From NCBI GenBank assembly GCA_012035135.1, contig JAAUPI010000020.1, positions 1 to 38,290 of the forward strand: a stretch of DNA of 38,290 nt. The letters are read 5' to 3'. A program made the translations under genes and the position numbers. Under the pieces are notes generated by a model, which was given only the letters and a program-made list of their open reading frames with translations, was not told where the DNA came from and did no database searches. This stretch comes from Microcoleus sp. CSU_2_2. Its GTDB lineage: Bacteria; Cyanobacteriota; Cyanobacteriia; Cyanobacteriales; Microcoleaceae. Positions 540 through 18,642 of the stretch are shown piece by piece (positions within the stretch are counted from its first letter, which is position 1; every line of letters begins with the position of its first letter).

Positions 540-2684
540 TTAAGAATTCAAAAAATCTAAATGTTCTCCAGATTTAGAGAGTAAATCTGCGACAACTCCT
601 TCGATTTTTACCTGTCCATTTTCCATGAAAATAATCCAGTTAGCTCGATTAATCACTCTCGGGCGATGACTAATTAAAATCGTGGTTTTACCTTGGCGGT
701 AAGATAGGAGTCCATCGAGGACTTCCGCTTCACTTATGGGGTCAAGATTGGCAGTAGATTCGTCTAAAATTAAGAGCGGTGGGTCAGTAACAATCCCTAA
801 AGCGATCGCTAATCTTTGTCGCTGACCTCCCGAAAGATTTGCCCCTAATTCCCCTAAAATAGTTTGATATTTACTAGGAAGTTTACTGATAAATTCATCC
901 GCCCTAGCAATTTGACACGCCTTGACAATTTGCTCAAATCCCACGCCAGGATTTCCCAATCGTAGATTATCAATAATTGGGCGAGTCCAAAAGTGCGACT
1001 CTTGGGGAATAATTACAATTTGTTCCCGGATACAATCAAGAGAAAGGTCTGGTAAATTGTAATTGCCAATGCGAATATTACCAGACTGAGGCTGATATAA
1101 ACCAGCAATGATTTTGGCTAAGGTACTTTTCCCACAACCAGACTTGCCAATTAAGGCAATAACTTGACCGCCGGGAAGAGTCAGGGAAAAGTTTTCTAAG
1201 AGTTCATTTCTGCCAGAATGATGAAAGTTGAGATTGCTGCAAATAATGTCAGCATTACTAGGAATTTTTACCGATGGTTTGGTATTTTTATCTTGAATTT
1301 CAGGGGTTGAGTCAATGACTTCAACTACGCGATCGATCGCCGATCGCGTGAAGGTTAATTGATTGACAAAACCAATGACACTGGCAATGAAAATTAGAAA
1401 ATTTCTATTCATGGTACTCAAAGCCAACAATTGCCCAATACTCAATTCTTGACTGAAGACTAAATTGCTGCCAAACCACAGTAAAGTTATCTCACCAGCT
1501 AAGGAGAAAAAGCCCGAAAAAGTGTTATTTACAATTGCCACTTGATTCATATTAAAAGTAATATTTGCTTGTCTCCCATAGCGCACTTGAAATTCCTCCC
1601 AAAATTGAGGTGCAGCATTTTTGGCTTTCAGGACGATCGCACCTTTAAAAGTTTCCACTAGCAAGGCTGTATTTTCGGCAGCGACAATTAATAAACTGCT
1701 GATATTTTGTTTAAGTTTAGGTAGTAAGATTAGAGTTGAAATTGTCATTAATAAGCCAATCACTAAAGCAACTGCTAGTAACTTTGGGCTGTAGGCTAAC
1801 ATTAAAGTCAGGGAAATAGCAGCCACGAAAAATTGACTGGGAAGTAAGATAATTGCTTGAGAAATAATTTGATTAATTTGTTCAATATCTCGCAAGCGGC
1901 TGGCAATTTCACCGCTGCGGTGGCATTCGTAGTATGCCATTGGTAAACCTAAGATAGTTCGGCAAAATTCTAAGATTAAATCTAGCTGCAACCGCTGGGA
2001 AAAATGAGCTACTAAGTTTAATTGTACGAATTTTAAACTGCTGTTAACTAAATTCATTATTAAAACAGCAATAACTACAGCATTGAGTAACTTATTATCT
2101 CCTCTTACTAGCACGTCATCGGTGAGAATTTGTAGCAGAAATGGAGAGGCGAGAGCAAGTAAAGCTGAGACGAGATTCAGTAAGAGTGCTTCGGCAAGAA
2201 TGTGGCGATAATTCCAGACTCGCAGTAAGAAACGCTGAAGGGTGCTAACGCGATCGCGCTCGTCGATTTGTGCTAGAAATTCTGGGTGCGGTTCTAGCAG
2301 TAACATCACGCCATTTGGCCAACTTAATTGCAGTTCTTTTCTGGATAAATACCGGATACCAAAACCGGGATCTGCAATCACATATTTGCTACCTCTGCGA
2401 CCGTATAAAATGACCCAATGAAAGCCTTTCCAGTGAATAATTCCTGGTAGCGTAACTACTTTTTTATCAATTAGTTCTAGGGAGGCTTTTACGCCTCTGG
2501 CGTTGAAGCCAAGGGTTTTAGCGCCTTGTTTGAGATTGAGCAATGTGGTTCCCAAAGCGCCAGTACCGGAGACTTCGCGGGTTTTGCTGAGGGTGAAAAT
2601 TCGACCGTAATATTTGGCAATGGCTGCTAGGCAAGCTGCGCCACAATCTTCTTCGCTATGCTGTAATATAACTGGGTATTTCAT
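540..2684 (-). CDS. Peptidase-containing ABC exporter (C39 domain, LanT/SunT type)
   Basis: This is a bacteriocin/lanthipeptide exporter that cleaves a double-glycine leader and exports the core peptide across the inner membrane. The order is C39 peptidase (about residues 1-130), a membrane domain of about six helices, then an ABC ATPase (about 480-714). The peptidase triad looks intact: Cys in EEDCGAACLA, His in WKGFHWVILYG, Asp in VIADPG. The ATPase has Walker A GKSGCGKST, signature LSGGQRQR, Walker B LLILDEST and H-loop ISHRP. The frame also allows a TTG start at 2720, but the ATG at 2684 (MKYPVILQHSEEDCG) fits the usual start of the C39 domain. It lies downstream of LanM on the same strand, separated by a 160-bp repeat, and probably shares its transcription unit. 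The 714-residue length is normal for the family. Confidence 0.9.
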   Translation of the reverse strand: MKYPVILQHSEEDCGAACLAAIAKYYGRIFTLSKTREVSGTGALGTTLLNLKQGAKTLGFNARGVKASLELIDKKVVTLPGIIHWKGFHWVILYGRRGSKYVIADPGFGIRYLSRKELQLSWPNGVMLLLEPHPEFLAQIDERDRVSTLQRFLLRVWNYRHILAEALLLNLVSALLALASPFLLQILTDDVLVRGDNKLLNAVVIAVLIMNLVNSSLKFVQLNLVAHFSQRLQLDLILEFCRTILGLPMAYYECHRSGEIASRLRDIEQINQIISQAIILLPSQFFVAAISLTLMLAYSPKLLAVALVIGLLMTISTLILLPKLKQNISSLLIVAAENTALLVETFKGAIVLKAKNAAPQFWEEFQVRYGRQANITFNMNQVAIVNNTFSGFFSLAGEITLLWFGSNLVFSQELSIGQLLALSTMNRNFLIFIASVIGFVNQLTFTRSAIDRVVEVIDSTPEIQDKNTKPSVKIPSNADIICSNLNFHHSGRNELLENFSLTLPGGQVIALIGKSGCGKSTLAKIIAGLYQPQSGNIRIGNYNLPDLSLDCIREQIVIIPQESHFWTRPIIDNLRLGNPGVGFEQIVKACQIARADEFISKLPSKYQTILGELGANLSGGQRQRLAIALGIVTDPPLLILDESTANLDPISEAEVLDGLLSYRQGKTTILISHRPRVINRANWIIFMENGQVKIEGVVADLLSKSGEHLDFLNS

Positions 2685-2760
2685 GGAATTTGTCGGGAGA
2701 ATGTGGTAATTATAAATCAATCATGTCTCGTTAATATAGGTTTGCATAATATCAGGTTCA

Positions 2761-2920
2761 GTAGGGGCGGGTTCGCCAAGATATTCAATGGAAAACCATA
2801 GGTTTTAAAAACCCGCCCCGTTCCTAGGGCGAGGGCGGATTTATTATATTTCTGGCGGGGTGGGGGCGGGTTTTTGAGTATTTGGGAATCTTTTTAAGCT
2901 ATTGGCGAACCCGCCCCTAC
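2761..2920. repeat. 160-bp MITE-like element with perfect 19-bp inverted ends
   Basis: GTAGGGGCGGGTTCGCCAA at 2761-2779 is the exact reverse complement of 2902-2920. Nested inside are further complementary arms (AAACCCGCCCCG near 2808 and GGGGGCGGGTTTTT near 2862), so the whole element could fold as one long hairpin. It fills most of the gap between LanM and the exporter and could weaken or shape read-through between them. Confidence 0.75.
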
Positions 2921-2957
2921 AAGTTTTTGACAATGTATTTCATTCAATTATTAAGCG

Positions 2958-5900
2958 CTAATCTTTCATTAATGGCGGTGCGATCGCGAGTACAGAAGGC
3001 ACAATATTGGGGGCGGCTAATCTCAGAAATCCGTAGCCAATGCCAGCAATTCCTGTCATCAAACCTAGATTTTCTACTCGCTGCGGTACGTCGCAAATCC
3101 AACCGTATTGGGCAATACTTTCGATCGCATTAAGAGCAATCTGATTGATTTCCGATCGCCCGGAAGTATTCAATATTTGCCGATCGCAATTCAGGAATTC
3201 CAGATTGCCGAGATCGCCATTACACAGAGAATGATTGTTACCAAAACCGCGCGCGATCGCAGTCTCCCGCGCCGCATCGATCTCAGCCAAAATTTCCCCA
3301 TCCTGAAAATGACGGAGTGAATGCAATCGCCCAAAACCGATACCGGGTGCGCCGTGACTCCATCCCAAGCTGAAAAATTGAGTGCGATCGCGCTCAAATC
3401 GCAAATCAGGCCAGTTTTTTACCTTTTCTGAAAACAAACTGCGCTCGTAAGCGATCGCACCCAGCGCCGCCGAGTGAAAACGTTCCGCACCTGTCAGCGC
3501 TGCCAACTCCAACAACGCCCAAGCAATACCCGCCGCACCGTGAGAAAATCCTGTCAGGGGTTGACATCCGGGAATTGTCCGCCAACCGAGTCCCTGGGGC
3601 ATTTTTTCAGCTTTTTCGAGGATGCGATCGCCACACCGAAGCGCCACTGTTTTAATGCGATCGCCCCCAACACAGCAATGCAGACTTGCTAAAGCCCCAA
3701 TACACCCCGCCGCGCCGCCAATAATATCTAATTGCTCATCCTTGGAAATCAATGCTGGCAAGCGTTCTACCCATTCAACAGCCATGTATAACATCTCTGG
3801 ATGCTGCCACAAACTACCCAAGTGAGTCAAAGTATAAATCAACCCCGCCCAGCCGTTAAAAGCGCCAATTGATGAAATCAGCCTGCCCTCATATTCGACT
3901 TGGTGCAGTACCGATCGCATCCCTGCCTGGGCTAATTCCCGATAGCGATCCTGTTTTGTCACCGCACCCAAATAAGCCAGAAACAACGCTACACCGGGAA
4001 TCCCATCCCACAAATCCCACCCCAAAGGGCTAACTGCCCAGTGGCGAGTACCCGTAAAAACTGGCCCAATCCAGCCCGCCAAATCGCCTGCACGCACCGC
4101 TAAAAACTCCAGTCTGTCGCCGATCGCACTTGCTGCTTGCACATACGCCAACTCAGTCGCCCGATCGTCTGCTGCTGCCACCTTTGGCATCGCGTAACTA
4201 AGTGACTTCCCCGGTTCCACCACCATGCCTAACGTTGTGAGAGAAGTGCGAATAAACCATAGCTGGCGCTCTAAATCGGCTTCATTCATGGCTTGTAGGC
4301 GCTGCTGTACCAACTCTAGCCCCGACTCGTCAAAAAAATCGCGAAAACATTCGCCGTTACTCGCCCACAGATGGCGCGAGTTGGGATACGTTGTGAGTTT
4401 GGGAATATCACCTTGCCACAAAGCCTCTCTCTCAGCCGGGATAACGCGCTCTAGGTATGGCAGCGCGGGGACTTCTACCCAAAGTTTATCGAAAAGGCGA
4501 TCGCGATCGAGAGCATCCCGCAACAAATTTGGGTGAAAGCTTTCTTGCAGCAACAACCCGTAACTCCGGGTTTCCCGCAGGAAAACGCGCACTTCATCTG
4601 TCGCAAAGCGATCTAAAAATTTGCTAAATTCCTCTCTATGCTTGACGATTAGCCGATAAGTCGCAGTAAATCCCGTTGCGATCGCCTCTTGATATGCCAA
4701 CGCATTCACCAACTCCCCCTGCAAGCGCGGTTGATTTTGATTCTCTCCGAGCGCGATCGCTTGCCGATAAACCTTTGCTTCATCAGTGTTTGAGGCTTTC
4801 AATCCAATTGTCCGCCCCATTCCCAACCTTTCGGGATTGCCACCGATCGCGCTCACATCCACCGCATCTGCTGCGATCGCCTGTGGTTGTGGCAGCAAAC
4901 CCACGCGCAATACGGATTTACCCATTTCTCGACGGGCGGGGAGAACTGAATTTGGCGAGTTTGGGGCAACTGGATGGGGGTGAAATAGGGATTCTAAGTC
5001 AATTAACACGGGGTGTTCCCCGGCTGCGATCAGGTTTTCGGCATGGAAATCAGTGCCTTGGATGGCGTGCAGTAGCGCTAGTAACCCGCCGAGGCGCTGG
5101 TAAAAGCGTTCGACGGCGGCGGGAGTTTCGCAACTGCTGGTATGGGCGAATTCTACCCATCCGTAACTGCCGCGATCGAGGATTTGCAAAGTGCGAAATT
5201 TTGGCTCACTTTTGGTATTAAGCCATGTGAGGAGTGTTTGGAAGCGAGCGTCTACAGCGAGGGGTTTGGGCTTATAGGCGATTTGCCAGCCAGAGCTAAA
5301 TGTGACTAGGGTGACGCTGCGGCAGCCGTTGTGAGCGTCACCCGCACCCGCTTTGACTTGTGCTAGAACTCCTGGCTCGATTTTGTGAGAAAAGTGAGAG
5401 ATAATTGTTTCCCAGTCATCGCAGAGGCGCTGGAGGAATTCTAAACTGAGATCGACCCAGATATTTATACAAATGACCAATTGTTGCGCTAATACTGGGT
5501 ATTCTTGCAGGATCGCGATCGCACTTTCGGGAGCTTCTAACCGCTGTAAGAAGCTCTCAAAGCGCTGTTGAGGAGTTTCGCCTGCCAGTAAGCCTTGCAA
5601 TCGCTGGGCATTTAGCTCTAGTGCCATTGTTGGGTTCAGCATCCAGAAGAAGCGATCGGGTAAAAATGCTAACAAAATTGATTCGATGGTAGTGCGATCG
5701 AAGGGTAGGGACGATGTTTTTCTATCCTTTACTAAGGCGGCAATTCCTTGGTGCAAGCGGTTTTTACCTTCAGCAAGCAGGGGCGCGATCGCGATCGTAA
5801 AACCTTCTGCCTCCGCGCGATCGCCCATCGTAAAAGCCATATCTAGTTCCTCCAACCAACTTAGAGGCTTTCCATGTCGCTTAGCCAGTGTTGAGACTGG

Positions 5901-6127
5901 TTCTCCCAACAGATACCGAAATTCTGCCTCAGTAATTCCCTCTAAAGCCAGTTTCTTATCAAAAAAAGTATCTTTGTCAAGGGGTATTGCGATCGCCACC
6001 GCCGCCATCGGCGATCGGCTAATTCCCCATCAAACTCATCTTTGCAGCCAGCGCCCAAAGACGCAATCCTTTCCCTCAGCGCGATCGCCCGATACCAACT
6101 CTCGCTTTGAAATACTTGTCGATCCAT
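2958..6127 (-). CDS. lanM: Type 2 lanthipeptide synthetase LanM (apparent N-terminal frameshift, altered zinc site)
   Basis: LanM enzymes dehydrate Ser/Thr of a precursor peptide and then cyclise them with Cys. The long frame (2958-6008, 1016 residues) lacks the usual N-terminus. That part is in the -1-related frame starting at ATG 6127 (MDRQVFQSESWYRAIALRER ... RRWRRWRSQYP). One extra C in the C4 run at 5981-5984 would join QYP to LDKDTFFDKKLALEGITE and give about 1056 residues, normal for LanM. The kinase-like dehydratase part keeps GTDFHAENLIA and PVLIDLESLFHP. The LanC-like part has GFSHGAAGIAW, but the expected WCHG reads WSHG (codon 3357-3359) and the expected CHG reads CNG (codon 3219-3221), so two of three zinc ligands are changed. 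Dehydration may survive while cyclisation is doubtful; a decaying gene is equally possible. HIP1 sites are dense here. Confidence 0.85.
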
Positions 6128-6233
6128 CGCCTCCACACCCTGACTCCTTGAAAGCCCAACTATCCCGCCATTCATGGCAGAGCCTTGATTGCAGGCAAAA
6201 TTAGCGACCGCGCTTGACTTAGTTGCTCGACTA

Positions 6234-6248
6234 TGATAATCATTATCA
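6234..6248. promoter_or_regulatory. Fur-box-like operator, 7-1-7 palindrome
   Basis: TGATAATCATTATCA matches the classical 7-1-7 Fur half-site arrangement (TGATAAT-N-ATTATCA) without a mismatch. It lies 107 bp upstream of the proposed LanM start and 156 bp upstream of the porin start, in the shared divergent promoter region. Repression of one or both arms by ferric-uptake regulator under iron sufficiency is inferred from the site alone. Confidence 0.7.
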
Positions 6249-6332
6249 TTGCGGTTGTCAAGGCGATCGGTCAAAATCTCAAGCGTAAAAGCTAACAGAT
6301 AAGTGAGTAAACATAGTTTTACATCATGTCTT

Positions 6333-6362
6333 TTGACTAGCTTAACAGCCCAGTACAAATAT
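6333..6362 (+). promoter_or_regulatory. Possible sigma70-type promoter for the porin
   Basis: TTGACT at 6333-6338 is a good -35 box. A -10 box is weak: TACAAA at 6354-6359 (15-bp spacer) or AAATAT at 6357-6362 (18-bp spacer). The ribosome binding site GAGGAG at 6393-6398 is well placed for the ATG at 6404. The promoter is tentative; the ribosome binding site is clear. Confidence 0.3.
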
Positions 6363-6403
6363 TACACAAACCTTGAATCGATCGGGGTATGTGAGGAGTT
6401 TCC

Positions 6404-8578
6404 ATGTTAAAAGTTTTGTCAAATGCTTTGCTATTTAGCCCAGTAACCGTTTGTGCTTTTCTAGCAGTTTGTGGGAGTGCGATCGCCAGCGAAGCCGCAG
6501 ATTTAACCCAAAATGCGCCGATTCAAAACCCCGAAAAAATAGCCGCAATCACCGCAGCAGCAACGCCCGAAAATCAGCTCGAAACAACAAGTATTACCTC
6601 TACAAACTTGTTGTCCGATCCTAGCAGCGAGTCCCTGACAGATGTTGGCACGGTAGAAAAAATAGAATCCTTGCCAGCGCAACAAAATAACCTGAGCATT
6701 CAGGAAAAAATAGCCGCTACAGAGATCGATCGAACATCGGAAAACTTAACAACAGCAACTGAAGCCTTACCAGGCAACGAAATAGCAGATTCAACAGCAA
6801 ATCTAACAGCAGAAAATCCCCCTGCGATCGCCGATCCATTAGAACAGTCTAGCGCCAGTTCAGAGACAATGGAGCAAGTTACATCCGTCTCCCAACTATC
6901 CGATGTAAAGCCCACAGATTGGGCATTTCAAGCCTTACAATCATTAGTCGAACGCTACGGCTGCATCGCAGGATATCCCGACGGCACCTATCGCGGAAAT
7001 CGCGCCATGACTCGTTACGAATTCGCCGCTGGATTAAATGCTTGTCTCGACCAAGTTACCAAATTAATTAGCAGTTCAACAGCTAATTTAGCCACCAAAG
7101 AAGACTTAGCAACCATACAAAAGTTGCAAGAAGAATTTGCTGCCGAACTTGCTACCTTGCGCGGCAGAGTCGATGCTTTAGAAGCTCGAACTGCCGAACT
7201 CGAAGCCAACCAATTTTCGACAACCACAAAATTGAGCGGCGAAGTAGTTTTTGCCCTGACAGACGTATTAGCTGGCGATAACGTTAGAACCCGCCTTCCC
7301 TTATCACCTCTCAACCCAATTACCGGAGCACGGCGAGAACAATCTAGAGAATTTACTACAGACGAGCAAAATACAGTCTTTGCCAACCGGGTCCGCCTGA
7401 ATTTCCTAACAAGTTTTACCGGGAAAGATATGTTAAAAATCCGCCTTACAGCCGGAAATTCAGCGCACCCAGGCCGACGAGCTCCTGACAATATCCGAGG
7501 TTTTGAATATGGGCCAAACCCAGTTACAGCTTATCAATCCGGTGGGAATCAAGCCGAACTAGCCAGAACCTATGAAGGTCAGCAAACTTTTCAAGATATC
7601 AGCACATTATCTGCTAATAATACCTTTGGATTAACAGCCTTGCATTACGAGTTTCCCGTTAGTTCTCGCTTGCAAGCTGTCATCATGGCAAAAGATGGCG
7701 AACACATGGATTATGTGCCTACAACATTCAGTCTTTTTGAAGATGGAAATGGCGGTACTCGTTCTCTATCTATACTCGGTCAACGCAACCCAATTTATAG
7801 CATTGGTGGATTGGGGGCGGGCGCGGGATTTAATTACAGATTCAGCGACAAATTAAATCTCAGTGTTGGATATTTAGCTGGTACGGCAGAAAATCCAAGT
7901 CAAGGAAATGGCTTATTCAATGGTAGATATTCGGCTCTCGCTCAGCTAACATTCAATCCCAGCCGCAATTTATCCTTGGGCTTAATTTACAACAACAACT
8001 ATCAGGTAGGCTCGCCTTTATTTAATAATGATGTCGGGACAACTCTTGCCAATAGTCCAATTTTCTTGACCGATAAATATGCGACAAATTCTTATGGTTT
8101 GTCGGGATTGTGGCGAGTTAATCGCAGATTTGGGATCGGCGGTTGGTTTAGCTATACCGATGTCAAAAGTTTTGGCGGAACATTAGCTCCCGGTACGCCA
8201 TTTGAGACTCGTTTCAGCAGCAGCAATGCTGATATTTTCAGCTACGGTGTTACTTTAGCTTTTCCTGACCTTGGAAAGCCAGGAAATTTAGGAGGAATTG
8301 TAATTGGCGTACCTCCCCATTTGACGAGTGCAAAAACTCCTTCTCCTTTCGATCGACCTCAAAGTGTACCGGAAAATCGAGCGGGTTATGATACGAAGGA
8401 TTTAGTCAGACGAATTCCCGATCGCGCTACTCCTTTTCACATTGAAGCTTTCTACGTTTATCGCCTTACGGATAATATCTTACTCACTCCTGGTTTGATT
8501 TGGTTAACGGCTCCCAATCAAACCAATAAGAATCCTGATGTGGTGATTGGAACTTTGAGAGCTACATTCCTTTTTTAA
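6404..8578 (+). CDS. SLH-domain OprB-type porin (iron uptake porin family)
   Basis: This is a cyanobacterial outer-membrane porin of 724 residues. A signal peptide (residues 1 to about 28, ending CGSAIAS-EA) is followed by an unusually long, low-complexity Ser/Thr/Ala/Glu-rich linker to about residue 160. Next come one SLH motif (DVKPTDWAFQALQSLVERYG ... GYPDGTYRGNRAMTRYEFAAGLN, binds the cell wall), a coiled coil (ATKEDLATIQKLQEEFAAELATLRGR), and a beta-barrel from about residue 275 ending in the outer-membrane signature TLRATFLF. Family members are now called iron uptake porins, and the Fur-like palindrome 156 bp upstream agrees with that. A GAGGAG ribosome binding site supports the ATG start. 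TfuA and YcaO genes follow on the same strand after 107 bp, so the porin may lead that transcript. Confidence 0.9.
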   Translation: MLKVLSNALLFSPVTVCAFLAVCGSAIASEAADLTQNAPIQNPEKIAAITAAATPENQLETTSITSTNLLSDPSSESLTDVGTVEKIESLPAQQNNLSIQEKIAATEIDRTSENLTTATEALPGNEIADSTANLTAENPPAIADPLEQSSASSETMEQVTSVSQLSDVKPTDWAFQALQSLVERYGCIAGYPDGTYRGNRAMTRYEFAAGLNACLDQVTKLISSSTANLATKEDLATIQKLQEEFAAELATLRGRVDALEARTAELEANQFSTTTKLSGEVVFALTDVLAGDNVRTRLPLSPLNPITGARREQSREFTTDEQNTVFANRVRLNFLTSFTGKDMLKIRLTAGNSAHPGRRAPDNIRGFEYGPNPVTAYQSGGNQAELARTYEGQQTFQDISTLSANNTFGLTALHYEFPVSSRLQAVIMAKDGEHMDYVPTTFSLFEDGNGGTRSLSILGQRNPIYSIGGLGAGAGFNYRFSDKLNLSVGYLAGTAENPSQGNGLFNGRYSALAQLTFNPSRNLSLGLIYNNNYQVGSPLFNNDVGTTLANSPIFLTDKYATNSYGLSGLWRVNRRFGIGGWFSYTDVKSFGGTLAPGTPFETRFSSSNADIFSYGVTLAFPDLGKPGNLGGIVIGVPPHLTSAKTPSPFDRPQSVPENRAGYDTKDLVRRIPDRATPFHIEAFYVYRLTDNILLTPGLIWLTAPNQTNKNPDVVIGTLRATFLF

Positions 8579-8586
8579 ATAGTGCC

Positions 8587-8680
8587 AAAAACCTGGTTTC
8601 TTTATCTAGCCTCAGGAACCGGGTTTCTTTCTAAATATCTCGTTCAAAATCGAATTTTATCCATAAACCCGGTTTCTTTA
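8587..8680. repeat. Three direct copies of an AACCCGGTTTCTTT repeat
   Basis: AAAACCTGGTTTCTTT (8587-8602), GAACCGGGTTTCTTT (8616-8630) and AAACCCGGTTTCTTTA (8665-8680) fill the gap between porin and TfuA gene. Another copy lies inside a coding region at 16833-16848, so this is an interspersed family rather than a local regulatory array. Confidence 0.6.
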
Positions 8681-8685
8681 CCTTT

Positions 8686-10125
8686 ATGCAGTCATTTCTA
8701 CCCATTACTGTATTCTTAGGCCCGTCTCTCAAAATAGATGAAGCTAGAAAAATTCTGGATGCAGACTATTACCCTCCCATTTCCAAGGGAGATATTTATC
8801 GAATTATGGCATCTGGTGTCGAAACTATTATTTTAATTGATGGAGTTTTGCACCGAGAAAGATCTGTTTGGCAACGTGAAATTTGCGACGCAATTAATGC
8901 CGGAATTAAGGTTTATGGTGCATCAGGTGTCGGAGCGCTGAGAGCAGCAGAATTGCAAGCATTTGGCATGAAGGGTTGCGGTCAAATTTTTGAATGGTAT
9001 CGAGATGAAATTATTGATGGAGATGACGAAATTTGGCTAACTTACGGTGACGCACCTGATAACTTTCGCCCGATTTCCGAACCGCTAGTTAATATCCGTT
9101 ATACTTTACTGAATGCTGTTAAAGATGGTGTGTTGAGAGCTGAAAAAGCAGAAGAATTAATTAGCTTTGCTAAAAAGTTATACTATCCCGATCGCTCCTA
9201 CCAGCAGCTTCTCAAAAGTCCGGTGTTACAACACCTATCTTCCGTAGCTTTAGCAGATATAACAACTTATTTAATGACAAAGCAAGTTGATTTAAAAAAA
9301 CTCGATGCGATCCAAGTGCTCAATTGGCAAGCTGAGGCTTCCCAAAAACAAGATATTATCTCTAGTAAATTCAATAAATTAGAATTGCCAGTGCCAGAAA
9401 TTCTCAGTAAAATAGTTGAAATGACTGGCTTTATTCGCGGCAATAAAATTTGCACGGGCAGAGAACTTTTATTGGCTGTCAAACAAGATGTTAATTTGCT
9501 AAAAGAGATGCAAATCAATTTATCAAAACACTGTTTTATTCGGGAGTGGGCGCAGCAAAATTGCATTGTTTATCCAGAACAAAAGTTAGAGTCTGACTTG
9601 GTTAAGTGGGAAAAAGTACATGGCATTGTTTGCGATCTAAAATGGTTGCAGTCTAATGGCTTAACTTTGTGTATCTACAGAAAATTAATGCGCGATCGCC
9701 TTGCAATTGATTGGATAACAAACCAAAGTCCAGAATATTTTGGAATTAAGGTAAATTTAGAGCAATCTATTCAGGAAGAATTGCCAATTCTCAACAGTAA
9801 TTTATCCTATATTTCTCAGGCAGAATTAACTGCTTTACGGTACAAATTATCACAACGCTATTTCATTTTAGAATGGGCAACCCAAAACAATATATTTCCC
9901 GATCGACCACAAAAAAGTTACTTAGAAAAGAAAGAGCAAGAAAGTATATCTGCGAATAGCTTGAACCTTGATTTTGACAAATTTATATTAAAAAATAGAG
10001 CATGGGAAGAATGGATTGTCAAGCAAGGCCCAAACTATTTTGGAATTCCTTGGAGTTTTTCTAATGCCTTGTGCAGAGAATTACAAATTACTGGAAAAGC
10101 CGCATATTTACTGAAAAACAACTAA
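8686..10125 (+). CDS. TfuA-like RiPP maturation protein with duplicated C-terminal region
   Basis: Residues 1 to about 210 match the TfuA domain as I know it: VFLGPSL near the start, GVETIILIDGVL, VYGASGVGALRAAEL and WLTYGDAPDNFRPISEPLVNIR. TfuA proteins partner YcaO enzymes, best known for backbone thioamidation (thioviridamide-type peptides, methyl-coenzyme M reductase). The rest, residues 230-479, is extra. It holds two related units, 279-366 and 389-467, each with a REWAQQN/LEWATQN segment followed by SPEYFGI/GPNYFGI. I do not recognise this unit; it could bind a peptide or the YcaO partner. The gene is followed 5 bp later by the YcaO gene, so the two are almost certainly co-translated. 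A/T-rich codons and few HIP1 sites contrast with LanM. Confidence 0.8.
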   Translation: MQSFLPITVFLGPSLKIDEARKILDADYYPPISKGDIYRIMASGVETIILIDGVLHRERSVWQREICDAINAGIKVYGASGVGALRAAELQAFGMKGCGQIFEWYRDEIIDGDDEIWLTYGDAPDNFRPISEPLVNIRYTLLNAVKDGVLRAEKAEELISFAKKLYYPDRSYQQLLKSPVLQHLSSVALADITTYLMTKQVDLKKLDAIQVLNWQAEASQKQDIISSKFNKLELPVPEILSKIVEMTGFIRGNKICTGRELLLAVKQDVNLLKEMQINLSKHCFIREWAQQNCIVYPEQKLESDLVKWEKVHGIVCDLKWLQSNGLTLCIYRKLMRDRLAIDWITNQSPEYFGIKVNLEQSIQEELPILNSNLSYISQAELTALRYKLSQRYFILEWATQNNIFPDRPQKSYLEKKEQESISANSLNLDFDKFILKNRAWEEWIVKQGPNYFGIPWSFSNALCRELQITGKAAYLLKNN

Positions 10126-10130
10126 AAAAT

Positions 10131-11288
10131 ATGGATGCACTTACTAAACGTTACAGTATCGGCACTCACCGTTTAATTTCACCGGAACAGACTTTAGCAA
10201 ATATCCAGCCTTACTTAGCAGCAGCAGGGATTACTCGTTGTGCGGATATCACTGGTTTAGATCGAATTGGTATTCCCGTTTATTGTTCCATAAAACCCGG
10301 TGGACGCTTGGTACAAATCCACAACGGCAAAGGATTATATCCTTTGGCGGCTAAAGTCTCAGCGTTAATGGAAGCGATAGAAGTTTTTCATGCCGAAAAC
10401 CCAGACTGCGATTTCCATCGCGACAGTTTTAAGGGTGTTTGTCAGAGCGATATATCAGTAATCTCACCTAATATTTTACCGCTTTACTTGTCACAAAACT
10501 TCTTTAGCAACGACTGGATAATTGACTGGATTCAAGCCGAAAATTTGCGGAAAAATGAAAGTGTTTTGCTGCCTGCAAGTGCTGTTTATCTGTGTTCGCC
10601 GTCGCTATACAGCTTTTCCTCAAATGGTCTTGCTAGTGGCAATCACATTGTGGAAGCAACGCTACATGGACTTTATGAGTTAATTGAAAGAGATGCGATC
10701 GCCCGCGTCAACATTAACGGTAAAATAAACTTAAAAAACTGTGAAATCATCGATCTCAATACAGTAGATGACGAGTCTATACGCGAACTGATTAATAAAA
10801 TTGAAGCCGCTAATTTTAAACTAGTATTAATCCAGCTAAAAAGTTGTATTTCTATCCATACTTTTTGGGCAATTATCCTTGACAAAAATCCCTTAACTCC
10901 TTCGATTATGGTGAATTTTGGTTGCGGAACACACCTAAGTCTTTCTGTAGCTGCAACACGGGCAATTACTGAGGCTGCTCAATCGAGATTGACATTTATT
11001 TATGGTGTTAGTGAAGAGTTAGCAGAGCCACTTCCTCCCGATCGCAGCCAGACTTATTATAAAATTTATGCTTATTTCGATCGTTTAGAAGGAACAGTGC
11101 CTTGGCAGAATTTTAGCAGTTTAGCTGGCAATAATTTAAGCGAAGATTACGATCGGGTTTTGCGATGTCTTTGGGAAGCTGGATATGAAAATATATTCCG
11201 AGTCGATCTGGCGCGATCGACATTTAATATTCCAGTGGTTAAAGTTATAGTGCCGGAGTTACGATATAACCCTTCAATAACTGGGTAA
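10131..11288 (+). CDS. YcaO-domain protein (RiPP cyclodehydratase/thioamidation type)
   Basis: YcaO enzymes use ATP to activate a peptide backbone amide, making azolines, amidines or thioamides. The three YcaO segments that bind ATP-Mg are visible: ALMEAIEVFHAE, HGLYELIERDAIAR and AATRAITEAAQSR. Pairing with TfuA favours thioamidation, but that is inference from known pairs. The frame allows a TTG at 10071 inside the TfuA gene; the ATG at 10131 (MDALTKRYSIGTHRLISP), 5 bp after the TfuA stop, is the better start and gives 385 residues. The end, VVKVIVPELRYNPSITG, stops soon after the conserved VKVIVPGLE-like strand. It touches a foreign gene remnant at about 11289, so 10-30 native residues may be missing. 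No F-protein (ocin-ThiF) or dehydrogenase is nearby. Confidence 0.85.
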   Translation: MDALTKRYSIGTHRLISPEQTLANIQPYLAAAGITRCADITGLDRIGIPVYCSIKPGGRLVQIHNGKGLYPLAAKVSALMEAIEVFHAENPDCDFHRDSFKGVCQSDISVISPNILPLYLSQNFFSNDWIIDWIQAENLRKNESVLLPASAVYLCSPSLYSFSSNGLASGNHIVEATLHGLYELIERDAIARVNINGKINLKNCEIIDLNTVDDESIRELINKIEAANFKLVLIQLKSCISIHTFWAIILDKNPLTPSIMVNFGCGTHLSLSVAATRAITEAAQSRLTFIYGVSEELAEPLPPDRSQTYYKIYAYFDRLEGTVPWQNFSSLAGNNLSEDYDRVLRCLWEAGYENIFRVDLARSTFNIPVVKVIVPELRYNPSITG

Positions 11289-11413
11289 TTCCTCATTTTA
11301 CCTTCAGCTTTCAGTTCATCAAACACTTCAAATAGTACGGATTCTGTCTTTTTGTCAACTCCCGAAAAAGGCTCGTCAAAGAAAAATAACTCTGCTTCTT
11401 GTGTTGAATGCAA
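11287..11413 (-). pseudogene. Fragment of a metal-type ABC transporter ATPase (Walker B/D-loop segment)
   Basis: About 40 residues on the minus strand, EAELFFFDEPFSGVDKKTES followed by VLFEVFDELKAEGKM, match the Walker B, D-loop and following helix of ATPases from Mn/Zn/Fe ABC transporters (MntB/ZnuC type). No Walker A or signature precedes it: the frame meets a stop just upstream (11417-11419), and homology ends at about 11289 where YcaO begins. It is a relic with both ends lost. Confidence 0.75.
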
Positions 11414-11414
11414 A

Positions 11415-11750
11415 ACTCATGTAGAAATTAGTTATATTCCTCAAAATTTATGCGATCGATCCTTAGATGAAGTTTTCAGACACCTTCAGGAAACTCAAGA
11501 ATTTTTCTGCATTGTGCGCAGCGAATGTCTGCGCGATCGACTGTTGCAACTATTAGCTTGGTTGGCAAAAAAATTTGGTCGGGAAGTGGCGGAAGGAGTG
11601 TTAATAGATCTGAGATTGACTCACCAGGAAATTTCGGAGGCGATGGGAATTACGCGGATTACGGTGACGCGGCTGATGTGCCGGTTGGAGCAAGAGGGAA
11701 TTATCGATCGCACTCGCCCTCAATACATTGTTTTAACTTCGCGTCTATGA
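11415..11750 (+). pseudogene. Truncated Crp/Fnr-family regulator (DNA-binding half only)
   Basis: The frame (open from 11352, stop at 11748-11750) encodes LCDRSLDEVFRHLQETQEFF, LRDRLLQLLAWLAKKFGRE and a winged-helix HTH, LTHQEISEAMGITRITVTRL followed by MCRLEQEGIIDRTRP. This is the C-terminal half of a Crp-family activator; the N-terminal cyclic-nucleotide-like domain is absent. The 5' part of the open frame (11352-11414) reads antisense through the ABC relic, so the original start is gone. The two relics are divergent and both truncated at about 11404-11415, as expected if a deletion fused two divergent neighbours. Expression as a free DNA-binding domain cannot be excluded. Confidence 0.65.
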
Positions 11751-15080: not shown

Positions 15081-16439
15081 TTGACTTTTAATCCGAATAA
15101 CTGCCGCAACGAAAGCGAAGTAGAAAGCAAACTCATTGTCAGTTATTTGTTGCCAAAGTTAGGCTATACCCCCGATACTTGGCACCAAGAAATCGCCTTT
15201 GGGAATATTCGTTTAGACTTCCTATCCTTTGCCACCCAAGCTATCCCAATAGTAATCGATGCAGACTCGCCACTGAGCGTAGTCATGGAGGCGAAACATC
15301 CGAAGGAAAATTTAGACCGCCATGTCAGGAGACTGAAGCGTTATTTAACAACTTTAAGCATTCGTTACGGACTGATTACAAATGCTAAAGAAATTAGAAT
15401 TTACGCAAGAGTCGCTTCAGAAATTCAGCTAGTATTTAGTTGTTCTGGACAAGAACTTGAAATCAGAATCGATGAAATTATATATTTAATTGGCAGAGAT
15501 AGTTTAAAATCTATAAAATCTCCGAAAGATCAACCCGAAATTAAATCAGATTTAGTTTTTAAAGCCACAAGTCAAAATACTATGAAAATCATTGCAGTTT
15601 ACCACAATAAAGGCGGCGTCGGCAAAACTACAACAGTCGTCAATTTAGCAGCAGCCCTCAGTAAAAAAGGTAACAGAGTCTTGGTAATAGACTTAGACAG
15701 TCAAGCCAATACAACCTTTGCCACAGGCTTAGTCAAATTTGATGATGAAGAACAAGACGATTTAAAACAAAGCAATATTCTGCACATTTTGCAGTCAGAA
15801 GACTTCTACTCAATATCAGAAGTAGTAAGAAAATCTAATTTTTGCAATCCCGAAATAGACGTAATTCCTTCCCACATTGAATTGATGCAATATGAAAACG
15901 AACTAAATTCACTGGATTACAGTAGAATGATTCTGATTGAAAAGTTAGCCGAAGTCAAAGAAAAATACGATATTGTACTGATTGATACGCCGCCATCATT
16001 AAATTTTTATGCTAGAGTTGCCCTGATTGCAGCCGATTATTTAATTATTCCTTCTGACTTAAAGCCTTTTGCAAATCAAGGATTGATTAATGTCAAAGAT
16101 TTTATTAAAAAAGTCAATGGATTCAAAAAACAAATCGGCAAGCAACCACTAGAAGTTTTAGGCGTACTTGCTTGTAAAATCTCAACCAATGGTAAATTTG
16201 TGCAGTATAGTTTACCCAAGCGGAGGGCAGCAATTCCCAAACGCTACGGGATTGAAATCATGGAAAGCGTAATTTACGAAAGAGATGATTTAGCCAAGTG
16301 TGCAGAACAAATTCAGATGGTGGGAGATATCGAAATCGCCGATCCGATTTCAGTGCTAGACTTTAAGCCAGATTCTGTCGCATCTCAAGAATTTGAAATG
16401 CTAGCAATGGAAGTCTTGGAAAAGATAGGTAGGAAATAA
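15081..16439 (+). CDS. PD-(D/E)XK nuclease-ParA ATPase fusion
   Basis: There are two domains in 452 residues. Residues 1 to about 150 look like the N-terminal nuclease domain of type I restriction HsdR subunits: E15, D46 in IRLDFL, E70-A-K72 in VVMEAKHP, then a RRLKRYL helix and a YGLITNAKEIRIY strand. Residues 168-452 are a ParA/Soj ATPase: deviant Walker A NKGGVGKTT (176-184), VIDLDSQAN, and Walker B IVLIDTPPSL. The start is TTG at 15081, because an in-frame TAA lies at 15072-15074. An internal ATG at 15582 marks the ParA start but has no ribosome binding site. The next gene overlaps the stop by one base. The role is unknown: partitioning, or a defence-type system in which ATPase cycling controls DNA cleavage. 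Confidence 0.85.
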   Translation: MTFNPNNCRNESEVESKLIVSYLLPKLGYTPDTWHQEIAFGNIRLDFLSFATQAIPIVIDADSPLSVVMEAKHPKENLDRHVRRLKRYLTTLSIRYGLITNAKEIRIYARVASEIQLVFSCSGQELEIRIDEIIYLIGRDSLKSIKSPKDQPEIKSDLVFKATSQNTMKIIAVYHNKGGVGKTTTVVNLAAALSKKGNRVLVIDLDSQANTTFATGLVKFDDEEQDDLKQSNILHILQSEDFYSISEVVRKSNFCNPEIDVIPSHIELMQYENELNSLDYSRMILIEKLAEVKEKYDIVLIDTPPSLNFYARVALIAADYLIIPSDLKPFANQGLINVKDFIKKVNGFKKQIGKQPLEVLGVLACKISTNGKFVQYSLPKRRAAIPKRYGIEIMESVIYERDDLAKCAEQIQMVGDIEIADPISVLDFKPDSVASQEFEMLAMEVLEKIGRK

Positions 16440-17368
16440 TGAAAAAATTATCTCCCTCACTAGTGGCAGTGAAAAAGCTGGTATCCACAGTTCCCCGTTC
16501 CAATTTTTGCGATCGCGATTTAGAAAAAGTAGCGCGACTGATTTTAGAATTAGGAGGATTGATTAATCCGATCATTCTCCGTCGCAACGGTATGGATGCC
16601 TACGAGATAGTAGACGGAGACTTTGAATACTATGCTGCTGCAAAAGCCAGGGAAATAAACCCTTTAAAAGGTGAAACAATCGGAGCATTTATTCTTGAAC
16701 CAGAAAATGAAAAACTTTTATTAGAACAAGTTAAAGCACTGAGAAAATCAGTAATAACTGAGAATTTAGTTGAAAACTCAGAAACCGATTTTTTTGAGGA
16801 AAATACTTCGTCGCCACCCGCAGATTCAATCAAAAACCCGGTTTCTTTGGTTGAAGTCGGTAATTCCTGTGAAAATGAAACTCCTCAACCATCATCTAGT
16901 TTAGAACAGCGGCTGACAAATATTGAAGCCCGGTTAGAAAACCAAATTAATGAATTAAAAGCCGATTACACCAGTGAAAAACAGGTGTTACTCCAGAGGA
17001 TACAAGAAGTTGAAAACTCAATTTCACAGCAACTACCTCTGTTAATTGAATCCCAGTTGGCAAACAGAATTAATGAATTAAGATCGGAGTCTCCCTCAGA
17101 AAAACAGGCTTTGGTAGAGGCGAACCAAAAAGTTGAAAGCGTAACTTCCGAACCAATGTCGTTGTTGTCAGCACTCAATACTCTCGATAAATTTAAACTG
17201 TCGGCAAATTTGAAAGATGCTGGGCTGAAGCCTCAAATAATCCAAATAATACTTAAAGAGCGAGATGTGCGGCCATTTGTGTCATTTGCTAATGTGGTAG
17301 AACGCATTAAAGGGTTAACCGACAAAACAATGATTAAAATAATTGACAATTGGCAAAAATACTCATAA
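16439..17368 (+). CDS. ParB-like protein with coiled coil and C-terminal helix-hairpin-helix-like domain
   Basis: The protein has 309 residues. The N-terminal part (about 1-100) resembles a ParB/sulfiredoxin-fold domain (LELGGLINPIILRRNG, YEIVDGDFEYYAAAKAREIN). A variable linker and a coiled coil (LEQRLTNIEARLENQINELK and on) follow. The last ~65 residues (LNTLDKFKLSANLKDAGLKP through FVSFANVVERIKGLTDKTMI) look like a helix-hairpin-helix DNA-binding unit. The ATG overlaps the ParA stop (TAATG), so translation is coupled, and ParA and this protein probably act together. The canonical ParB arginine motif for CTP binding is not evident. The linker contains a copy of the AACCCGGTTTCTTT repeat. 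Confidence 0.75.
   Translation: MKKLSPSLVAVKKLVSTVPRSNFCDRDLEKVARLILELGGLINPIILRRNGMDAYEIVDGDFEYYAAAKAREINPLKGETIGAFILEPENEKLLLEQVKALRKSVITENLVENSETDFFEENTSSPPADSIKNPVSLVEVGNSCENETPQPSSSLEQRLTNIEARLENQINELKADYTSEKQVLLQRIQEVENSISQQLPLLIESQLANRINELRSESPSEKQALVEANQKVESVTSEPMSLLSALNTLDKFKLSANLKDAGLKPQIIQIILKERDVRPFVSFANVVERIKGLTDKTMIKIIDNWQKYS
16833..16848 (+). repeat. Interspersed AAACCCGGTTTCTTT repeat inside a coding region
   Basis: AAAACCCGGTTTCTTT matches the intergenic copies at 8587-8680. Here it is translated as part of KNPVSL in the disordered linker of the ParB-like protein and keeps the frame open. Confidence 0.55.
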
Positions 17369-17562
17369 ATCCCAACTCCCGCCTCCACTCGCAACGTTAA
17401 CCCAGTCAGGCTCGACGTTAAAAAAAGTAAAGATCGGTAAAGCAATGTATAACTTGTGTTCCCCAGCCAGTTAAACTCATCACAGTCGGTTATTTTAGAG
17501 CTTGCCGTAACTTTAATAGCTAAAACACCTGATTTTAATGACAAAAGGGGACTTGTAAGAAG

Positions 17563-18642
17563 ATGGATCGATCGTCCGATCGCAACCGAATAGTTGAATA
17601 TTTGCGGATTAAGCCAATTAGTCACAGTCAAATTTACACTTCCCAAATTGCGGTGCCAGAGGCTCAAGGGGGGGAAATCCCTCATGATCGCCGTGAAGCT
17701 CTCAGGAGAAGTCTGATCGAGCAAGGCAGCAACTTGATTCCTTTAATTGTACGCCGCACAGAAGCTTACAGCAACGAAGAAGAATATGAAGTTGTCTGTG
17801 GCGCTGATTGGTGTATCGTTGCCAAAGAGCTTGGCATCGAGCAAATGTGGGCTTGGGTATTTGAAATGACCGACGAGGAAGTAGCTGTTACTCAAGCAGA
17901 AATGGCACAGTTAGCTCCCCAATCGGCTATAAAAACTGCACAAATTGAAACTCTCCTGCAACAACTTGAGGTATCGTTTCAGCAAAAAGTAGATAGTCTG
18001 ACAAAAAAGATAGAGCAATCTGTTAATAAAAATGAAGACTTTCTCAAAAAACAAGTAAAAGCTATAGCCGATCGCAATCTCGATTCTGACTCCATAGAAC
18101 AGATTAAAAATCTGGTCGAAAATCTAGAAAAAACATTTCACGAAAAGGTAGATAAATTGGCTAAAAAAATTGAACAATCTGGCAAAAATGCTCCCTGTGC
18201 ATCCTCGGTTATTTCTGAGGTAAATATTGAAAGTGCATTAAAACAGTTGGAAGAACTAGATAAACAGTTGTCAAGAAAATTAGAAAGAACTGCGCAAGCA
18301 ATTAATCAATTCGTTTCTGATGCACTCCAAGATGTAGAAGACGATCTAAAAAATCAAATCGGAGTTCTCCGTAGCCAACTTAGAGCGACCGATAATCACA
18401 CAAAAATACAGGCAGAATTACAGCCAAAAGCGCAGCCAAAAGCGCAGCCAAAAGCGCAGCCAAAAGCGCAGCCAAAGGTACAATTGCCACAGTTATCGGA
18501 GGTTGAATCATCGCAGGAAGACTATGATAGTTTTTCACTCAGGAAGCTTAAGGCGATCGGCAAAGAACGGAAAGTGCGCGGTTATGCACGCATGAAAAGA
18601 CCAGAAATTCTGGCAGCCCTCAAGAAAAATGATGATAAATAA
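17563..18642 (+). CDS. Second ParB-like coiled-coil protein with SAP/Rho-N-like C-terminus
   Basis: The protein has 359 residues. Residues 20-110 form another ParB-like domain (REALRRSLIEQGSNLIPLIV, EYEVVCGADWCIVAKELGIE, WAWVFEMTDEEV). A long coiled coil follows, containing an internal duplication (FQQKVDSLTKKIEQS and FHEKVDKLAKKIEQS), then a QPKA tandem tract (287-306). The C-terminal ~40 residues (SLRKLKAIGKERKVRGYARM then KRPEILAAL) have the form of a SAP/Rho-N helix-turn-helix that binds nucleic acids. It lies 194 bp after the first ParB-like gene on the same strand. Same design, different DNA-binding tail: probably a diverged duplicate serving the same ParA. Confidence 0.75.
   Translation: MDRSSDRNRIVEYLRIKPISHSQIYTSQIAVPEAQGGEIPHDRREALRRSLIEQGSNLIPLIVRRTEAYSNEEEYEVVCGADWCIVAKELGIEQMWAWVFEMTDEEVAVTQAEMAQLAPQSAIKTAQIETLLQQLEVSFQQKVDSLTKKIEQSVNKNEDFLKKQVKAIADRNLDSDSIEQIKNLVENLEKTFHEKVDKLAKKIEQSGKNAPCASSVISEVNIESALKQLEELDKQLSRKLERTAQAINQFVSDALQDVEDDLKNQIGVLRSQLRATDNHTKIQAELQPKAQPKAQPKAQPKAQPKVQLPQLSEVESSQEDYDSFSLRKLKAIGKERKVRGYARMKRPEILAALKKNDDK
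18421..18480 (+). repeat. Five tandem 12-bp units encoding (QPKA)n
   Basis: Four exact CAGCCAAAAGCG units and a fifth variant CAGCCAAAGGTA encode QPKA x4 and QPKV. Copy number is likely to vary between strains by slippage. The tract forms a basic Pro-rich hinge between the coiled coil and the C-terminal domain. Confidence 0.9.

Follow-up and report, generated by a model that had tools for sequence, protein, structure and literature searches.

The question raised by the left end of contig JAAUPI010000020.1 of the cyanobacterium Microcoleus sp. CSU_2_2 (assembly GCA_012035135.1) is which product two peptide-modifying chemistries make around a single promoter. The window, which is the whole stretch of 38,290 nucleotides analysed here, contains genes for a C39 peptidase/ABC exporter, a class II lanthipeptide synthetase (LanM), a porin, TfuA and YcaO, together forming an island for a ribosomally synthesized and post-translationally modified peptide (RiPP). 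A preliminary description had named these five genes and a promoter region common to both arms. All five were recovered in place by Pfam and NCBIfam profile matches, and the common region is the interval between LanM and the porin, which holds a perfect palindrome. With moderate confidence, the locus is considered to be a zinc-starvation RiPP island that makes, modifies and exports a probable secreted zinc-binding peptide. More tentatively, it may belong to a family of ribosomal cyanobacterial zincophores, in which Zur-controlled lanthipeptide-type clusters dropped the zinc ligands of the cyclase and then recruited TfuA/YcaO for a thioamide on a CxCGSxxCS...HH..G[VI] core, as a zinc counterpart of methanobactin. 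In the following, G handles denote genomes and L handles loci; G000 is the window's own genome, a metagenome-assembled genome of 357 contigs that is 84% complete. LanMs without the cyclase zinc ligands are called type-A, and box-linked LanMs that keep them type-B.

At the settings used, the LanM-porin interval contains one inverted repeat, an 8-1-8 palindrome of which the 15-mer TGATAATCATTATCA is the core, exact at 6234-6248. For the 15-mer TGATAATNATTATCA, one site is present in the window at up to two mismatches, compared with an expected 0.15. The palindrome overlaps the -10 element of the best promoter-like site on the LanM strand, and three promoter-like sites are found in the stretch versus 0.7 in shuffled sequences; an Rfam search of the window gave no match. 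In relatives, the box is located before LanM or the porin (L051, L053, L060, L061 and L062) and before the precursor gene (L051, L053, L061 and L062), and in G004 the TfuA/YcaO pair has its own copy, before TfuA. In Tychonema LEGE 07203 (L081), boxes are present at 1816, 4647, 9740 and 17518. The box is read as a Zur box and not as an iron box because it recurs before znuA, COG0523 and ALAD genes, so that the island promoter appears to share a Zur-type operator with zinc genes; that Zur itself is the regulator, we infer from this gene content. A separate box also precedes the gene for an FAD/NAD(P)-binding oxidoreductase, weakly similar to lysine/ornithine monooxygenases, in G056, G004 and G065 (L051:9504-10721, L198:3001-4221 and L205:6610-7836).

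Contigs were scanned with five aligned LanMs as the query, and 80 of the 82 relatives were retained. A LanM tree was made from 48 of 90 rows, comprising cyanobacterial rows and three outgroup rows; high-scoring segment pairs of up to 700 query residues were omitted, as was L085, which lies on the same contig as L054. In this tree, built by a quick method and with an outgroup that no single branch separates from the other rows, three nested clades are present, each with an SH-aLRT support of 100: 19 box-linked LanMs, among these 13 that have lost cyclase zinc ligands, and among these 8 with both TfuA and YcaO. The box, at up to two mismatches before LanM and/or the precursor, is found in 19/19 members of the largest of these clades, including the window, and in 0/28 of the other 29 rows with testable upstream sequence (L078 has only 61 bases and L096 none). 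Box labels were set by reading the loci, and a recount of the loci in the tree agrees; in L091, the box precedes the precursor and no sequence is available upstream of LanM. The tree requires at least one change for the box, one for ligand loss and three for TfuA, the extra TfuA changes being caused by G043. This box-free locus (G043:C53, L054/L085, Cyanosarcina radialis HA8281-LM2) contains two LanMs with intact zinc ligands, TfuA, YcaO, four mersacidin-type precursors and one Gly-Gly precursor of another leader type in 18 kb. It is a separate LanM-TfuA/YcaO hybrid, indicating that not every LanM/TfuA neighbour is zinc-linked. In G092, from the same genus as the window, a porin that is 94% identical and the perfect box are kept, and the N-terminal part of LanM is fused to an HlyD fragment (L060:5678-9033), suggesting a deletion of the island in this genome.

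The precursor peptides are known from relatives of the window. In G056 (10 contigs, 99% complete), the precursor belongs to the mersacidin family (TIGR03898, 75.4 bits) and has the core CTCGSTQCSMPWHHYSGVAEESSTLLA, and 4/4 precursors scanned with this model match at 71-77 bits. The preliminary description had proposed to look for double-glycine precursors near the island; these have been found in relatives but not in the window or its assembled genome, and short open reading frames (ORFs) in the window's intergenic regions 2600-3100 and 5900-6450 include no such precursor. A survey of precursor rows with a placeable Gly-Gly-like site, in which identical rows were merged, kept 107, of which 73 are cyanobacterial (a number that includes the loci with G handles); in L121 and L100, the core is empty or a stub. 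A box at up to two mismatches in the approximately 200 bases upstream is present for 21 cyanobacterial precursors, and all 21 cores contain His and at least two Cys, compared with 13/43 cores where the best site has at least four mismatches and 4/7 at three mismatches. The Fisher P value for this association is 2e-8, in a test that omitted the 7 rows at three mismatches and 2 rows with too little upstream sequence.

Three types of core have been observed. The first, CxC[GS][ST]xxCS...HH..G[VI], is that of the 7 precursors visible in TfuA/YcaO loci. The second, CTTC-with-THT...C or C..CGNPLHT..C, occurs where the ligands are lost and TfuA/YcaO is absent, and in some further genomes, and a THTKTCKHCC-like core is found in a third group. 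The Gly after HH is the only Gly kept in all 7 cores of the first type, since the Gly after CxC is replaced by Ser in L074, and the Gly of HH-x(1,2)-G-[VI] may be guessed to be the site of the thioamide. The earlier suggestion that both arms act on one precursor gains indirect support, as the core type of these 7 precursors is absent from the five sister loci without TfuA/YcaO, but this reflects one clade and not repeated events. Outside the cyanobacteria, one precursor of L145 has a site with two mismatches and a core without His, and at L145:8485-9484 (Thermosporothrix hazakensis) LanM is accompanied by four precursors, whose cores have Trp/Gly repeats or are rich in His/Tyr/Cys.

The LanM of the island has the domains of a class II enzyme (PF13575, the DUF4135 dehydratase, 396.4 bits; PF05147, LANC-like, 210 bits), and TIGR03897 spans residues 74-1000 with a score that greatly exceeds those of the models for classes III and IV. 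The D/H of GD.H, the K of YKP, the D/H/N of TDFH.EN and the D/E of IDLE, which we take to be the catalytic positions of the dehydratase, are invariant in five aligned LanMs and identical in LicM2. The cyclase motifs are WCHG and LCHG in LicM2, and WSHG and LCNG in type-A LanMs. Over 90 LanM rows, the ligand triplets are CCH (66), CCC (7), SCN (11), SGN (1), NCS (1) and unscorable or odd (4); the Cys, Cys and His/Cys ligands kept in 73 rows are thus replaced by SCN in the window. The 13 ligand-lost LanMs (11 SCN, 1 SGN and 1 NCS) form a single clade, and a porin is present in 11 of their 13 loci; in L091 and L125 the contig stops just upstream of LanM. The preliminary description had called this arm lanthionine-type. 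LanM and the C39 exporter are indeed present, but the formation of lanthionine is uncertain, since the LanMs of this clade lack two of the three cyclase zinc ligands. Zinc-less cyclase domains may still be required for activity, as in the dehydrazoles (PMC10676384), and the LanM is therefore termed zinc-independent rather than dead. In addition, Zur regulons are said to hold paralogs of zinc proteins (PMC10957091), and a zinc-free LanM within a zinc-starvation clade would fit this. In the Chloroflexi loci L113 and L115, the ligand columns of the LanM cyclase also contain non-ligand residues, and the adjoining precursors have Ser/Asn/Arg-rich cores without Cys.

These data also bear on whether the product could be a bacteriocin induced by zinc starvation, in which a Zur-controlled hybrid RiPP would inhibit competitors and its Cys and His would serve for rings or structure. 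Antimicrobial lanthipeptides usually combine a LanM with a leader of the mersacidin family, to which the leaders scanned in relatives belong, and other cyanobacterial LanM loci of the wider group have varied cores. Nevertheless, a bacteriocin is considered unlikely: all box-bearing cores share the His and Cys content, the zinc ligands needed for ring closure have been lost across the type-A clade, and importers are present in the sister loci L090 and L097.

The reading as a secreted zinc-binding peptide also draws on the neighbours of the island. In G056, the order is HlyD, precursor, FAD oxidoreductase, exporter (97.6% identity over 712 aa to the window), LanM (97%), porin, TfuA (80%) and YcaO. 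TfuA/YcaO is located behind the porin and divergent from LanM in the window, G056, Oscillatoriales USR001 (L071), Microcoleus MP8IB2.171 (L074) and L081. A second order is present in G004, with the boxed TfuA-YcaO pair, a glyoxalase-like gene, porin, LanM, exporter, precursor and HlyD, and a third in Microcoleus CAN_BIN18 (L072) and Richelia CSU_2_1 (L073), with porin, LanM, exporter, precursor and HlyD followed, on the opposite strand, by another porin with YcaO-TfuA behind it; in L073, several genes are in pieces. In L081, where the porin is 97% identical to that of the window, less than 20 kb contain ZnuA-ZnuC-ZnuB-ALAD-YcaO-TfuA-porin-LanM-exporter-FAD oxidoreductase-precursor-HlyD. The island of L062 adjoins ZnuA and an ABC ATPase, and the type-B locus L092 adjoins ZnuABC-like genes (tblastn). 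In the type-B loci L090 and L097 (Nostoc/Calothrix-type), the genes for precursor, LanM and exporter are accompanied by those for a TonB-dependent receptor, Peripla_BP_2 and DUF7676; L090 also has FecCD and an ABC ATPase, and L097 a TonB protein. Among the traits of zincophore clusters, the window has an exporter and a porin, the latter being the only outer-membrane candidate seen among the flanking ORFs scanned, and the TonB receptor and siderophore-type importer parts were seen only in type-B sister loci. DUF7676 lies between the TonB-dependent receptor and the periplasmic binding protein (L090:14183-15055; L097:3352-4224) and is possibly a metallophore-linked family.

Alternatively, the peptide could be a metal-buffering or protective peptide, or an intercellular signal of low zinc, that is controlled by Zur or a related Fur-family protein and exported without re-import. 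The copper-binding bufferins are known metal-buffering peptides and provide a model. Such a role would agree with the Cys/His-rich core, control by the box, the exporter and HlyD, and the lack of a TonB receptor among the type-A flanking ORFs scanned. However, Znu genes adjoin the island in L081 and L062 and, by tblastn, the type-B locus L092, importers are part of the type-B loci L090 and L097, and protection against zinc excess would have the wrong sign, since derepression of Zur signals too little zinc. A buffer or signal without re-import is therefore judged improbable.

Whether zinc or iron is the metal depends on the targets of the box. In the window's own genome, the same motif precedes CobW-type and ALAD (hemB-type) genes, and in relatives it precedes znuA and others. 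At up to one mismatch in four genomes, the recognisable targets are the island itself, ZnuA, ALAD, CobW/COG0523-type proteins, the FAD oxidoreductase and an ABC ATPase whose position resembles that of ZnuC, and folE-type GTP cyclohydrolase genes are found near box-bearing CobW/COG0523-type genes. The Zur regulon of Anabaena includes znuABC, COG0523, hemB2, folE2 and TonB receptors, and the box targets fit this regulon as it is tabulated in PMC6103462. In G056, the gene behind a fifth site shares 67% identity with the CobW_C gene of L187, which also has a box. Also in G056, a broken ALAD copy just downstream of YcaO retains its box (L052:985-1951), and the gene at that place in L081 is unbroken.

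The preliminary description had linked the island to iron by proposing iron-starved cultures for its study. A Fur box and a role in iron acquisition would agree with the 7-1-7 motif, which is common to Fur-family regulators, and with the porin family, which is named 'iron uptake porin'. Nevertheless, the box and the neighbouring genes point to zinc: the recognisable genes behind the box are zinc genes, and the box occurs upstream at up to two mismatches in 6/20 ZnuA-family loci versus 0/20 IsiA/CP43-family loci, a weak control because the latter include many genes for ordinary CP43 or tandem antennae that are not necessarily iron-regulated. The longest ORF per locus was used in this comparison, so that the matched gene may be missed in a few loci. 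The iron reading was rejected as very improbable. Two IsiA-family loci (L232 and L234) have a TGAGAATNATTCTCA-like site at one or two mismatches.

TfuA and YcaO are adjacent and intact in the window, as in TfuA-YcaO thioamidated RiPP clusters. The nearest solved relatives of both are archaeal, namely MJ1094 for YcaO (6pe3/6peu, 3.9e-51) and 6xp8 for TfuA, and the scores with the equivalog models for McrA thioamidation are below their cut-offs (226.3 versus 235.2, and 241.6 versus 365). TfuA has a helical C-terminal extension of approximately 260 aa, and 6xp8 covers residues 8-215 only. The structure model of TfuA is of low confidence (mean pLDDT 57), and 6xp8 is its sole Foldseek match at E<=0.001. 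A likeness of the helical part to SurA was dismissed, since the Foldseek matches were weak and not significant, and no claim is made for the extension. TfuA is found in 15/291 genomes of the order (E<=1e-10) and in 4/388 genomes of the class (E<=1e-60). Six close TfuAs (E<=1e-90) were obtained in the order-wide search; for those of G000, G056, G004 and G043, a LanM lies no more than approximately 15 kb away on the contig, whereas for those of G035 and G162 no LanM does. Among 15 other genomes of the window's genus listed in this search, none has TfuA. For the five sister loci without TfuA/YcaO, the same search gave no TfuA in 4/5 assemblies and, in G065, only a distant one 1 Mb away; the absence in L076, L091 and L125, which are on short contigs, rests on this search.

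That the two arms belong together had been made to depend in the preliminary description on their co-occurrence elsewhere, and TfuA/YcaO is present in 8/8 loci of one LanM subclade, including the window, in three gene orders. An accidental neighbourhood, with a decaying lanthipeptide locus beside an unrelated thioamidation pair, could draw on the broken LanM of the window, the remnant locus of G092 and the rarity of TfuA, but it is contradicted by this recurrence, by the LanM ORFs that are intact in G056, L071, L074 and L081 and by the intact TfuA and YcaO, and is hardly credible.

For a zinc-starvation island, the following sequence of events is proposed. In zinc-replete cells, a Zur-type repressor would occupy the palindrome between LanM and the porin and, in relatives, the boxes that precede the precursor and the FAD oxidoreductase, as well as the TfuA box of G004. 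Zinc shortage would lift Zur, resulting in production of the mersacidin-family precursor, and LanM would dehydrate core Ser and Thr, probably without zinc-dependent thioether closure, with TfuA/YcaO predicted to install the thioamide. After this, the C39 exporter would cut behind Gly-Gly and export the peptide together with HlyD. Outside the cell, the Cys/His-rich peptide may bind Zn(II), and the complex would re-enter through the outer membrane, by the porin here and by the TonB-dependent receptor in sister systems, and hand its zinc to ZnuABC.

Several observations weigh against this reading. The genes behind sites with up to one mismatch are of zinc or cluster type for only 4/10 sites in G000, 5/10 in G056 (including the ALAD remnant), 6/8 in G004 (one with an intervening gene) and 6/10 in G065 (where 6 of the 10 sites were looked at), and several such sites fall within genes. 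The reversed pattern gave 3, 10, 1 and 5 sites in G000, G056, G004 and G065, respectively, indicating that the motif alone is not specific and that the argument rests on position and gene content. A 7-1-7 palindrome is the general box form of the Fur family, so that the motif cannot by itself separate Zur from Fur. In addition, the P value given above overstates independence, as the His/Cys association rests largely on one LanM clade. Six type-B box-linked LanMs retain CCH, and zinc sparing is therefore not a general rule.

Other observations concern the window itself. Its LanM is frame-broken: in a tblastn search with the LanM of G056, residues 1-56 align to 6127-5960 and residues 49-1061 to 5984-2946 in a different frame, so that the gene begins near 6127 and its first approximately 56 codons are out of frame with the rest. 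This is due to a small indel or decay, or to an assembly error. No precursor is present in the window's assembly, although the same search was positive in 4/5 other genomes (G056, G004, G065 and G258, not G092), and a search of G000 for HlyD gave only a 45-51% paralog on another contig. The precursor may be missing because of an assembly gap, which we infer from the contig break. In the fetched type-A flanks, of which part of the ORFs were scanned, no TonB receptor was found, and import of a metal-peptide complex by the porin is a guess.

Multiple known systems share parts of the island. In the dehydrazoles (carnazolamide, CcaM; PMC10676384), a LanM-type DUF4135 enzyme and YcaO are also part of one cluster with a cyclase that lacks zinc ligands; there, YcaO and a dehydrogenase form azoles, the cyclase is class III-like and the leaders are long and NH-like. 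The island has TfuA beside its YcaO in place of a YcaO/dehydrogenase pair, a LanM-like cyclase with point losses in place of a LanM domain fused to a class III cyclase, a mersacidin-like leader and a Zur-type box. The TfuA-YcaO thioamidated RiPP clusters of PMC8120280, of which 18 are cyanobacterial, resemble the island in the adjoining TfuA and YcaO and in the Gly-Gly precursors, some of which belong to a type that the paper associates with lanthionine enzymes. The main text of that paper does not contain the terms LanM, porin or zinc and makes no zinc link for the cyanobacterial clusters. The mersacidin/lichenicidin-family class II lanthipeptides (TIGR03898) have the leader family, LanM and the C39 exporter in common with the island, which differs in its lost cyclase zinc ligands, its TfuA/YcaO, its Zur-type box and its core, which resembles a metal ligand.

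Among metallophores, the Zur-controlled clusters for pseudopaline, coelibactin and EDDS export a zinc ligand as proposed here, with a TonB-dependent receptor as in the sister loci (PMC6103462); these are small molecules made by other enzymes, whereas the ligand of the island would be a ribosomal peptide. The Zur-controlled zincophores treated in PMC6103462 and PMC10957091 are likewise not ribosomal. Cyanobacterial TonB-dependent receptors under Zur control are known from the same papers, and PMC10957091, in discussing how zinc is scavenged, covers ZepA, which is an extracellular protein, and the known zincophores, where no cyanobacterial zincophore is named. The lusichelins of Lusitaniella coriacea are cyanobacterial metallophores reported as isolated natural products (PMC12210259). 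Noursin is a His-containing metal-binding lanthipeptide, although with a LanKC-type synthetase and copper as the metal, and no zinc regulation is described in the parts of PMC10206099 considered. With methanobactin, the likeness is the idea of a peptide-derived, thioamide-bearing metallophore (mining paper PMC3621798). In the part of the PMC literature searched, no RiPP zincophore was found. The analysis offers a candidate zinc ligand that is genetically encoded, and it names the strains and predicts the site of modification. If it is correct, lanthipeptide machinery would gain a role in zinc acquisition, LanM would be paired with thioamidation, and an enzyme family would shed its own zinc site within a zinc-starvation clade. 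Methanobactin binds copper and is made by different enzymes, and we know of no LanM or TfuA/YcaO in its clusters.

Features of the island in the window
Feature	Position	Strand	Evidence
FAD/NAD(P)-binding oxidoreductase, C-terminal tail, truncated at contig end	3..263	+	92.5% identity over 80 aa to L051:9504-10721
C39 peptidase / ABC exporter	540..2720	-	Peptidase_C39 107.9 bits, ABC_membrane 106.4, ABC_tran 108.8
LanM, class II lanthipeptide synthetase, motifs WSHG and LCNG	2958..6127 (ORF 2958-6008)	-	TIGR03897 909.9 bits (cut-off 304)
Perfect palindrome ATGATAAT-C-ATTATCAT, between LanM and porin	6233..6249	.	Putative Zur box
Promoter-like site TTGACA-17-TATCAT toward LanM	6233..6261	-	11/12 matches
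SLH-OprB porin	6404..8578	+	NF033921 'iron uptake porin' 531.4 bits (cut-off 100); OprB; SLH
TfuA	8686..10125	+	PF07812 137.2 bits
YcaO	10131..11288	+	PF02624 233.9 bits; start by alignment 10131, not 10071

The island is truncated at the left contig end, and in relatives such as G056 the FAD oxidoreductase adjoins the precursor gene and HlyD; a full-length relative of this oxidoreductase matches Pfam NAD_binding_9. The start of the exporter was placed by homology at an ATG near 2684. Directly downstream of YcaO, 11352-11750 encodes a Crp-type HTH without the nucleotide-binding domain, possibly a truncated gene. At 15081-18642, a ParA-like gene is followed by genes for two proteins with weak ParB_N matches, amid housekeeping genes. 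Elsewhere in the window's genome, G000:C32 (L058) and G000:C318 (L059) contain another LanM, whose ligands are CCC, together with precursors that have a Gly-Gly leader and genes that resemble exporters; a further, distant YcaO is also found there.

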